NCBI GenBank assembly: GCA_900317925.1
Contig: ONIQ01000019.1
Location: forward strand, 1-37,886
From: an uncultured Bacteroidales bacterium
GTDB taxonomy: Bacteria > Bacteroidota > Bacteroidia > Bacteroidales > UBA932
Direction: 5' to 3'
DNA length: 37,886 nt
The notes beneath the pieces are model-generated. The model was not told the origin of the DNA. It did no database searches and saw only the letters and a list, made by a program, of their open reading frames with translations. Both the position numbers and the translations under genes were made by a program. Of this stretch, positions 17,157 to 18,597 are shown piece after piece (positions within the stretch are counted from its first letter, which is position 1; each line of letters begins with the position of its first letter).

Positions 17157-17239
17157 GCGCGGGTGGCGAAATGGTAGACGCGCTAGTTTCAGGAGCTAGT
17201 GGGGTAAAACCTGTGTGAGTTCGAGTCTCATCTCGCGCA
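17157..17239 (+). tRNA. tRNA-Leu (anticodon CAG)
   Basis: An 83-base cloverleaf with a long variable arm, as leucine tRNAs have. The acceptor stem pairs GCGCGGG with CTCGCGC (one G-U) and A is the discriminator base. The D arm contains TGGCGAAATGGTAGACGC, the anticodon loop is TTTCAGGAG with CAG reading the CUG codon, and the T loop has TTCGAGTC. CCA is not encoded. It has its own promoter and is closed by a strong terminator. A mobile repeat block begins directly downstream. Confidence 0.95.
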
Positions 17240-17240
17240 C

Positions 17241-17285: not shown

Positions 17286-17366
17286 GGCCTTTTCTGCAAA
17301 GATTGGTAAAATTGACAGTGATTCTCTTGTAGAGGGCTTTGATTTCTATGTACAGTTAGGGGTAAG
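17286..17366 (+). repeat. 81-bp direct repeat, left copy
   Basis: It begins GGCCTTTTCTGCAAAG and ends at GGGGTAAG just before the first 37-nt palindrome. The right copy is at 18429-18509 with one mismatch (T or G at offset 60). It contains a small CTCT/AGAG hairpin. It has no open frame of note and could be the element's left-end sequence. Confidence 0.8.
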
Positions 17367-17454
17367 TGCTCCAGGTGTCCTATTTTATTGCAGACCAGGA
17401 GCAAAATAAGCGTTTTTTGCTCCTGGTGTCCCATTCTTCTGTAGACCAAGAGCA
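17367..17454 (+). repeat. Left REP-like array: two 37-nt palindromes and a core
   Basis: Unit 1 (17367-17403) is TGCTCCAGGTGTCC, nine bases, GCAGACCAGGAGCA. Unit 2 (17418-17454) is TGCTCCTGGTGTCC, nine bases, GTAGACCAAGAGCA. Both are exactly 14+9+14. The arms pair TGCTCC with GGAGCA and GGT with ACC around a mismatch, which is the imperfect-stem form of REP sequences. The units are in the same orientation and separated by a 14-nt core, AAATAAGCGTTTTT (17404-17417). Confidence 0.75.
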
Positions 17455-17472
17455 CCTAATCAACCGTATGCT

Positions 17473-18339
17473 ATGAATTTAAAAACAGAAACAACGTTTT
17501 GGATGATAACAACGAATCATCTGACAGACCGTCTTTGGTTCAAAGACGAAGTAGATTACAAGACAGGAATGAATTATGTAGCTGTCTTAGCGGCTCATAA
17601 TCCGGTGATGGTAATAGCTTTTATTTTGATGTCGAACCATGTCCATTTCCTTTTGGCTGGAACAGAGAAGCAAGGAAGGTTATTTGTTGAGCGCTTTAAG
17701 AAAAAGTATTCCCAATATTATTCCTATAAATATGGATCGGCTGAATTGCTCCGTGGAAATGAGATTGATGTTCGGGAAGTGAGCCTGAAGGATGAATCGT
17801 TTGAGCGTGCTGTGGCATATATCCAGATGAACAGTGTGGCCGCTAACAATTGTTTGCACCCTTCAGGATATCCGTGGGGAACTGGCGATGTATTTTTTAG
17901 TGCTACTCCTCAGACGGGAATCCCTCTTGGTTCCATGAGTGCTCGTGCAGTGAACCGGATGACGCGAAGCAAAGAATCCTTGCCGGATCACTATATGATG
18001 GGTGAAAAAGGGTATATTACTCCAAGTTCTTTTGTACCCGTAAAATATGTGGAGTCAGTCTTTAGGACACCACGACGAATGAATTATTTTTTGCAGAACT
18101 CCTCAAAAGCCCGTCGGTTGAAAGAAGCTCCTTCTTTTGACGACAGTTTGGTACTCTCAGCTGCTCGAAGTCTATGTGTCTCGTTATTCCGAAAAACGCA
18201 GATTTCGGAATTATCTACAGAACAGAAAGCGGAGATTTTGAAACAGTTGCGTTATCGATTCTCAGCAGGGCCCCATCAGCTGTCCAGGATTTCCGGTCTT
18301 TCCTATCAGTCCGTGAGTGAGTTGCTGGATCAGGGATGA
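17473..18339 (+). CDS. REP-associated tyrosine transposase (Y1, HUH)
   Basis: The 288-residue protein has the Y1 transposase fold: a metal-binding HUH motif His56-Val-His58 in FILMSNHVHFLL and a probable catalytic Tyr116 in AYIQMNSVAANN, the position of YIHLNPV in relatives. A C-terminal extension (about 140-288) ends in a helix-turn-helix-like ISGLSYQSVSELL, as in the RAYT branch rather than in short IS200 TnpA (about 150 residues). It would nick single-stranded DNA at hairpins and stay bound through the tyrosine. Both active-site parts are intact. No TnpB partner is present. Codon use is AT-richer than the neighbours. No promoter was found; it may be read from outside. Confidence 0.85.
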   Translation: MNLKTETTFWMITTNHLTDRLWFKDEVDYKTGMNYVAVLAAHNPVMVIAFILMSNHVHFLLAGTEKQGRLFVERFKKKYSQYYSYKYGSAELLRGNEIDVREVSLKDESFERAVAYIQMNSVAANNCLHPSGYPWGTGDVFFSATPQTGIPLGSMSARAVNRMTRSKESLPDHYMMGEKGYITPSSFVPVKYVESVFRTPRRMNYFLQNSSKARRLKEAPSFDDSLVLSAARSLCVSLFRKTQISELSTEQKAEILKQLRYRFSAGPHQLSRISGLSYQSVSELLDQG

Positions 18340-18428
18340 TGGTGGGGTTTGGATCGGGGAGCCATCCACCAGTCAGGACTTTTCGGCGGATGACCTCCCC
18401 CTGAATGACCCGGCCTTCCAAGCTGCCG
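18340..18428. other. Unassigned spacer after the transposase gene
   Basis: Eighty-nine bases of GC-rich sequence between the transposase stop and the right direct repeat. GGTGG near its start can pair with CCACC about 25 bases on. No gene, promoter or match to the left flank is seen. Confidence 0.4.
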
Positions 18429-18509
18429 GCCTTTTCTGCAAAGATTGGTAAAATTGACAGTGATTCTCTTGTAGAGGGCTGTGATTTCTATGTACAGTTA
18501 GGGGTAAGT
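18429..18509 (+). repeat. 81-bp direct repeat, right copy
   Basis: It matches 17286-17366 at an offset of 1143 bases with a single mismatch, and identity continues through the first palindrome to 18545. This near-identity implies recent duplication or ongoing exchange between the flanks. Confidence 0.8.
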
Positions 18510-18597
18510 GCTCCAGGTGTCCTACTCTATTGCAGACCAGGAGCGAAAAACGCTTATTTTGACCCTGGTCTGCACTTTTTCGGGACACCTGGAGCAG
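18510..18597. repeat. Right REP-like array: inverted pair of 37-nt palindromes
   Basis: Unit 3 (18510-18546) is in the plus orientation. Unit 4 (18561-18597) is in the minus orientation (read backwards: TGCTCCAGGTGTCC, nine bases, GCAGACCAGGGTCA). The 14-nt core between them (18547-18560) is the exact reverse complement of the left core. Unit 3 with unit 4 makes a large nested palindrome, with outer arms of 14 bp and inner arms of 10 bp, like a BIME. Confidence 0.75.

Follow-up and report, generated by a model that had tools for sequence, protein, structure and literature searches.

In the papers examined here, recognition between REP-associated tyrosine transposases (RAYTs) and their repetitive extragenic palindromic (REP) sequences was studied with a few gammaproteobacterial enzymes. 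In Pseudomonas fluorescens SBW25 the unit is described as an extragenic doublet of hairpins with inverse ends, a REPIN, with a cluster beside each RAYT and a separate family for each RAYT (PMC3116915). The E. coli protein TnpA_REP (RayT, structure 4ER8) combines an HUH motif with one catalytic Tyr followed by an Asn, and its gene adjoins its repeats, which have mismatched stems with a tag on the 5' side (PMC8266576). For the Bacteroidetes, the account of TnpA_Y1 subclass 2.6, or RAYT group 5, describes unusual secondary structures that flank the gene and have copies elsewhere in the genome (PMC6006769). Here we compare with these systems a locus in a 37,886-nucleotide stretch from an uncultured Bacteroidales bacterium (contig ONIQ01000019.1; the window, hereafter), where an intact RAYT-like gene is bracketed by hairpin doublets. 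A first-pass annotation of the sequence had noted that REP-associated transposases are best known from gammaproteobacteria, and had not recognised the palindrome family. We read the lineage as new; by the published description of subclass 2.6 such flanked RAYTs were already known in the Bacteroidetes.

We think it likely that the window gene is a RAYT of a new, genus-specific lineage, most of whose members go with a REPIN-like non-autonomous element of their own. Full-length members of the lineage were found only in this uncultured Bacteroidales genus. The layout of the element is that of a REPIN: an AAG-like tag, a hairpin, a spacer (4 A/T, about 6 mostly G/C, 4 A/T), a second hairpin and an inverse tag. 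By its fold, catalytic residues and repeat layout the system belongs beside RAYT/REPIN. We did not place it in a published subclass because the GTAG tag, the Y---NP motif, the NCBIfam cut-off and the high abundance all fail. As RAYTs of subclass 2.6 with hairpins are known, we limit the novelty to the lineage, to the tag and spacer and to the radiation of private pairs; a search of the open-access literature by title and abstract found no description of this RAYT/REPIN lineage.

The window gene is an open reading frame (ORF) on the plus strand (17473-18339) encoding 288 amino acids. It has the catalytic residues that the first-pass annotation had read, His56-Val-His58 and Tyr116 (codons at 17638-17640, 17644-17646 and 17818-17820). 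A Y1 transposase domain makes up the N-terminal half (Pfam Y1_Tnp, E 8.8e-4, under the cut-off), and the protein matches the NCBIfam model for REP-associated tyrosine transposases with an E of 1.7e-9 and 37.7 bits, the cut-off being 80. The AlphaFold2 model has a mean pLDDT of 94.5. Its nearest solved fold is 4ER8_A, the E. coli RAYT on REP DNA (rank 1, E 1.6e-4), which is the only structure match below 1e-3; IS200-type transposases come next, at 2.2e-3 and worse. The fold and the NCBIfam match support a protein of the RAYT type. The C-terminal extension is all-helical and ends in a helix-turn-helix-like segment (about residues 249-286, 18217-18330), a label that is read from the pattern and has the support of no family model. 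Such an end may not be unique to the genus: by reading, seven other Bacteroidales RAYTs of at least 245 amino acids also have a helix-turn-helix-looking end.

Homologues at E ≤ 0.001 were found in 53 of the 101 relatives searched, 52 of them among the 61 genomes of the same genus and one among the 40 others of the order (E 4.4e-4). Close homologues occur in named Bacteroidales and Prevotellaceae metagenome-assembled genomes (MAGs), several from rumen or other ruminant stomachs. With fragments included, the 52 positive genus genomes hold 275 RAYT matches, five in the window's genome and up to 12 in another (G011), so the expectation of one such transposase per genome failed. Lengths were 282-351 amino acids, with start codons picked by script, in 80 of 83 homologues; contig ends or N truncate the remaining three. 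When a profile of 78 members was run against 393 genomes of the order, with the best six candidates per genome at most being scored, full-length matches at E ≤ 1e-10 came only from the three members of the genus in that sample. A further 50 genomes gave a partial match, nearly always to the N-terminal part and mostly in ORFs of about 190-290 codons. In a tree of 52 core domains, for which the 24 genus rows were picked by hand, these rows form one clade with support of 100/99, in 100% of bootstrap trees and on a stem of length 1.06; the nearest other RAYT group is joined with a weak support of 54/92. The clade is separate from the sampled Bacteroidales RAYTs, and subclass 2.6 was compared by its description only. 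In seven homologue pairs dN/dS was 0.05-0.30, two of the pairs having dS above 1, and the proteins therefore appear to be kept under selection.

All 78 aligned members have the HUH motif and one catalytic Tyr, and His56, His58, Tyr116, Asn120, Trp135 and Gln269 are invariant; Asn120 and Trp135 are thus conserved residues of the window protein. NCBIfam REP_Tyr_transpos (NF047646, an equivalog) was matched by 75 of the 78 at E ≤ 0.001, and Pfam Y1_Tnp was found in 72 at E ≤ 0.1. The motif Y---NP is given as common to all class 2 TnpA_Y1 members (PMC6006769). Here Tyr and Asn stand in 78/78 rows and Pro in only 27 (Cys 26, Ser 22, Gly 2, Ala 1; the window has Ser), so that Y...N[P/C/S] takes the place of the Y...NP of E. 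coli RayT. That protein also differs in having 165 amino acids against 288 and in requiring GTAG (PMC8266576). Opposite the region of its W94 the window family has no Trp, in an alignment that is itself not significant. Subclass 2.6 differs as well, with a median of 179 amino acids and YIH[QN]NP where the genus has mostly 282-351. Shared with subclass 2.1 (RAYT group 1) are the long proteins, NHVH and a C-terminal extension, which in that subclass partly resembles Bac_DnaA_C (all PMC6006769). Among the 25 families listed for our members at E ≤ 0.1, Bac_DnaA_C is absent.

Four 37-nt palindromes bracket the window gene where the first-pass annotation had placed them. Upstream, units A (17367-17403, plus) and B (17418-17454, plus) are separated by a 14-nt spacer, AAATAAGCGTTTTT (17404-17417). 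Downstream, units C (18509-18545, plus) and D (18560-18596, minus, with a degenerate 3' arm) are separated by AAAAACGCTTATTT (18546-18559), also of 14 nt, to which the upstream spacer is exactly reverse-complementary. By stem sequence A and B run in the same direction, and C and D are inverse. Both doublets have AAG on their 5' side (17364-17366 and 18506-18508, plus), a feature absent from the first-pass annotation, as is the 169-nt direct repeat described below. At the far end of the upstream one, 17455-17457 is CCT, which reads AGG on the minus strand; the far end of the downstream one has no tag. The covariance model R1, introduced below, scores the upstream doublet (17367-17454) at 67.9 bits, E 1.2e-13, this doublet being one of the 21 rows from which the model was built. 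The downstream doublet (18509-18596) scores 48.0 bits on the minus strand and 44.9 on the plus strand.

The units had been described as 14+9+14 palindromes, which holds for their conservation but not for their pairing. All four have no mismatch to a pattern loosened from the earlier consensus; against the original consensus letters unit C deviates once, at its last G, and unit D twice, with GGTCA in place of GAGCA. Single-strand folding gives 9 pairs for unit A, 10 for B and 8 for C, at energies of -4.8 to -5.6 kcal/mol and with hardly any pairing in the inner 4 nt of each arm; unit D barely folds (-0.6 kcal/mol). The doublet is the stronger structure: both 101-nt window doublets fold better than 200/200 shuffles, with z-scores of -4.6 and -8.1.

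The same arrangement recurs across the lineage. Flanks were examined at 83 loci, out of the 275 RAYT matches. Reading the flanks of 43 homologous loci suggested hairpins with differing stems at many of those listed. When flanks were scanned for pairs of 35-39-nt hairpins set 11-18 nt apart (score ≥ 24), the scan found a doublet beside the RAYT gene at 62/83 loci, compared with 4/166 shuffled flanks and 0/71 window tiles. These 62 include the window and two loci on contigs of the window's own species (L043, L044), and some barely exceed the threshold and may be chance. At many loci the scan finds doublets on one side only, or in tandem.

Spacer and tag were analysed in 37 doublets of 22 loci; spacer composition was not used by the scan, and the tag lies outside both scan and model. 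The 18 spacers of 14 nt have a G+C content of 0.00, 0.81 and 0.04 in their first 4, middle 6 and last 4 positions, and the 19 spacers of 15 nt have a similar, less regular pattern. At the outer doublet ends AG occurs 31 times in 74 and AAG 21 times, against an AG background of 6%, while GTAG stands at 1/148 unit ends and GGAG at 2/148. An AAG-like tag is thus found in place of GTAG or GGAG. Since the tags face outward at the ends, the two hairpins of each doublet point in opposite directions, which is the REPIN arrangement, although the stems of units A and B of the window run the same way. Compared with SBW25 the stem sequences are other ones and the spacer has 14-15 nt in an A/T-G/C-A/T order (PMC3116915), and the tag differs from the GTAG of Pseudomonas REPs (PMC3733652).

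Stems are private to their locus. Between the upstream and downstream stems of one locus a mean of 81% of arm positions are alike (25 loci; the lowest value is 29%, probably due in part to register errors), and between stems of different loci 41%. To follow the doublets through genomes we used R1, built from 21 of 26 selected doublets; L014, L022 and L072 (out of register), L062 (a near copy of L060) and L055 were left out. Covariation is no part of our case, because these 21 doublets had been chosen for self-complementarity, which inflates both the percentage of paired positions and the numbers of compensatory changes.

At E ≤ 0.01 R1 doublets occur in 39 of the 61 genus genomes and in none of 40 outgroup genomes. 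They follow the enzyme: 39/52 genus genomes with a RAYT have them and 0/9 without (p 2.9e-5), as do 26/27 with a close homologue and 13/34 without one (p 1.8e-6), p values that ignore relatedness and genome completeness. In the 393 genomes of the order, with the best 11 candidates per genome scored, the window's genome and three others gave one match each (E 3e-5 to 3e-4), and G101 and G428, further genus members of that sample, gave none. Matches reached at most 39 per genome over the 101 genomes (best 43 candidates per genome scored), and no genome counted reached an abundance of more than 100 copies. SBW25 is described with more than 1000 copies (PMC3116915) against tens of matches here, where a genome has up to 12 RAYT matches and the protein is longer.

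Many of these doublets stand away from any RAYT gene. We took 25 of about 31 such places in three genomes (G016, G019, G054), leaving out as weak or partial G016 C2:460872, G019 C12, G054 C20, C22, C30 and C32:112, and also one in G000. At 21 of the 25 the stems best fit the RAYT flanks of the same genome, and at four those of another genome; this is a strict test because each genome offers 1-3 loci of its own against 47-49 others. AG stands at 19 of the 50 ends and AAG at 12. Five of the 25 overlap by half an ORF of at least 150 amino acids, compared with 73% of random windows, and the other 20 lie outside. Some have longer flanks in common and hence are not independent. Two doublets in G016 (L149 at C1:497233 and L150 at C3:367231) are of a family, ATATGGGTCC...GGACCCATAT, for which there is no fit among the three RAYT loci examined in G016; they may belong to the fourth G016 RAYT match or be orphans.

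The first-pass annotation had suggested a lineage-specific REP family mobilised by this enzyme. A lineage-specific hairpin family tied to the RAYT is borne out by the 62/83 loci, by the 39/52 against 0/9 genomes and by the 21/25 cognate dispersed sites; in the window's own genome it is no abundant REP. That 2.18-Mb draft holds six copies of the unit pattern at up to 3 mismatches, four of them at the window gene, and the reversed pattern, used as a control in the same draft, has no match at up to 3 mismatches. The two extra copies, at C14:8703-8739 and C34:43293-43329 (the latter with 3 mismatches), show that the units are not confined to the window locus. Both are near contig ends, each in a doublet, the one on C34 cut off. 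As the two ends are alike, they may be one place seen from either side. The window's unit family is low-copy, with the caution that assemblies break in such repeats. Both copies adjoin a tandem array in which another hairpin family, GGAAGGTCC...GGACCTTCC, recurs every 52 nt; the arrays are in L006 (G000:C34:41792-43361) and L002 (G000:C14:7202-8972); GGAAGGTCC starts eight times on the C34 piece.

We propose a scheme that would accommodate the computed catalytic residues, fold, layout, tag, spacer, private stems, dispersed cognate copies and co-occurrence. The doublet would become single-stranded, on the lagging strand or by extrusion, and the RAYT would recognise the tag and its private stem on this single-stranded DNA. 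Tyr116, with a metal held by His56 and His58, would then nick at the foot of a hairpin, leaving the enzyme attached to the 5' phosphate. By cutting again and transferring the strand, the enzyme would bring the doublet, or a copy of it, to a new single-stranded site, in most cases between genes, and the RAYT gene itself would mainly be inherited, flanked by its doublets. We infer nicking, strand transfer, the exact cleavage site and a role of the C-terminal part, and likewise that doublets are copied by the RAYT rather than by recombination. Tag and stem recognition, nicking near the foot, the 5' phosphotyrosine and strand transfer would be as in E. coli TnpA_REP (PMC8266576). As a guess, the helical C-terminal domain might bind either the duplex form of the stem or a further strand.

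Comparison of relatives bears on how the genes and doublets are inherited. Apart from the window's own locus, one of 29 loci with the CstA-like gene that neighbours the window RAYT has a RAYT upstream (G016), several of these loci having less than 1.5 kb of upstream sequence examined. This G016 RAYT is the closest homologue of the window RAYT, at 55%, and has a different hairpin, which suggests, from one genome, that an old RAYT was kept at that place while its hairpin changed. G023 and G047 are about 90% identical, and a RAYT with hairpins stands in G023 (L191, on C3) and was not found in G047 (L190, on C45). The difference shows gain or loss of a RAYT-hairpin set, not transposition. By reading, the gene in place of the RAYT in G047 is alpha/beta-hydrolase-like. 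A 94-96% identical stretch of G003 and G011, broken at a doublet end, was not used, the G011 contig being a possible contaminant. In G016, a core of a few hundred bases is also flanked by inversely oriented doublets of two RAYT families. These composites (L145, L146, L147, L148) are intergenic and about 1 kb long, with a conserved core, and look like mosaics. A RAYT remnant read in them by eye was dropped after a profile test gave an E of 0.34 or worse.

A number of results weigh against a lineage of RAYTs with REPIN-like elements of their own. On the side of the enzyme, the fold match is a modest one, at 14% identity and a TM of 0.57 over the 4ER8 chain, and profile comparison to the E. coli RayT sequence by hhalign is not significant, with a probability of 2.8%. 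As for the hairpins, the fold z-scores of window units A to D against shuffles are -2.1, -1.6, -1.1 and +1.7, so that A-C alone are only modestly better than shuffles and D is worse. The scan finds no doublet at 21/83 loci; 16 of these 21 are homologues of at most 34% identity, and some of the rest (e.g. L016, L067) have hairpins that are visible by eye but escaped the scan. Protein and hairpin distances are only weakly correlated (Mantel r 0.25, p ≤ 0.0005, 50 loci), and 13 of the 52 RAYT-bearing genus genomes have no R1 doublet. Copy numbers are low too: four genomes have at most 40 R1 matches each (both strands, so about half as many sites), against hundreds in classic REP genomes, and the window's own genome has only one or two further places with the unit, at contig ends. 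As for movement, no clean empty site was found, and no insertion had two clean edges. In the one comparison of near genomes, G023 with G047, the G047 interval holds another gene and only one edge coincides, to within a few nt, with a doublet end; one dispersed site, on C9, was compared with G047 and no counterpart was found. The G016 composites lie within longer repeats whose pieces are 75-97% identical, and may for that reason spread by recombination.

Several of these points would be at home in a different account, in which the RAYT is domesticated and immobile, the doublets serve as binding sites or structured 3' ends (terminators, mRNA ends, RAYT autoregulation) and the dispersed copies are old or were spread by recombination. 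The low copy numbers and the G016 copies within longer repeats fit it, as do the strong folding of whole doublets and a window locus that is unchanged in three MAGs of about 97% identity. So do the positions of the dispersed sites, 12/25 of which have the edge of an ORF of at least 150 amino acids no more than 100 nt away and 11/25 of which stand between two converging ORFs of that size. General terminators, however, would not be expected to have private stems that match the resident RAYT, nor does this account sit well with a tag that keeps its position while the bases beyond vary, or with R1 doublets being absent from 9/9 RAYT-less genus genomes. We regard it as unlikely, though as the strongest of the rivals. 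An ordinary insertion sequence of the IS200/IS605 type would share the Y1 domain seen in the 72/78 members. It was rejected, and we give it almost no credence: the 1.3-kb block is single-copy in the draft genome, no second full copy being found there, contrary to the near-identical whole copies of an ordinary insertion sequence; paralogues within a genome are at most 61% identical in 43 comparable pairs (median 46%), and therefore no insertion sequence; 72,556 plasmid and 50,697 phage records gave no match at E 1e-5; and dispersed doublets occur without a RAYT gene. A phage origin was also set aside, a scan of viral contigs having given only two distant relatives, 19-26% identical. A TIRtron, that is a Y1 gene moving whole between long terminal inverted repeats (TIRs), gains something from the window flanks, which form a 92-nt inverted repeat, 74% complementary, and from the RAYT-like genes between TIRs already described (PMC3733652). 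The flanks are nevertheless hairpin doublets that carry tags and have a spacer of roughly 14 nt, many loci show them in the scan on one side only or in tandem, and the dispersed copies are doublets, which makes a TIRtron very improbable.

If the window RAYT belongs to a lineage with REPIN-like elements of its own, its guide code may differ from that of the enzymes studied so far. It would consist of a relaxed Tyr motif, Y...N[P/C/S], with a C-terminal DNA-binding-like domain on one side and an AAG-like tag with a private stem on the other, pairs of paralogue and doublet having co-diverged. We advance this tentatively, at a little short of even chances. If true, the genus may hold at least 100 naturally occurring enzyme-hairpin pairs that share one layout and differ in specificity. 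One genus with many paralogues, private stems, a common layout and a different tag would allow specificity to be mapped by swaps of natural pairs. Low-copy REPIN-like systems can also occur widely within a genus of uncultured gut bacteria, and in draft genomes repeats at contig ends may hide them.

Some features of the window and its surroundings remain to be described. The RAYT gene is bracketed by a 169-nt direct repeat (left copy 17286-17454, plus, an approximately 80-nt leader and the doublet; right copy 18428-18596, plus, 88% identical to the left). The 80-nt leader (17286-17366 and 18428-18508) has no further match in the draft genome. Just upstream and outside the system is tRNA-Leu(cag) (17157-17240, plus); in an Rfam scan only the tRNA reaches the gathering score. 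The gene downstream of the RAYT we take to be CstA-like, a name that does not come from a family search. The window locus is also present, at about 97% identity, on contigs of two other MAGs, RUG487 and RUG13987, "RUG" presumably standing for rumen. In the loop of unit A the window differs from both, which there equal the loop of unit C, and a T/G difference between the window and both MAGs is identical in the two leaders (17363, 18505). These matching changes in loop and leader suggest concerted evolution of the two window flanks, through gene conversion or a similar process. Recombination between the two copies of the 169-nt repeat would delete the RAYT and leave a single doublet. For comparison, L174 (G240:C49), from another Bacteroidales family, is a short RAYT of the ordinary type, with 188 amino acids, and its flanks contain three AATCCTCCA hairpins that are 31-33 nt long and have loops of 5 nt.

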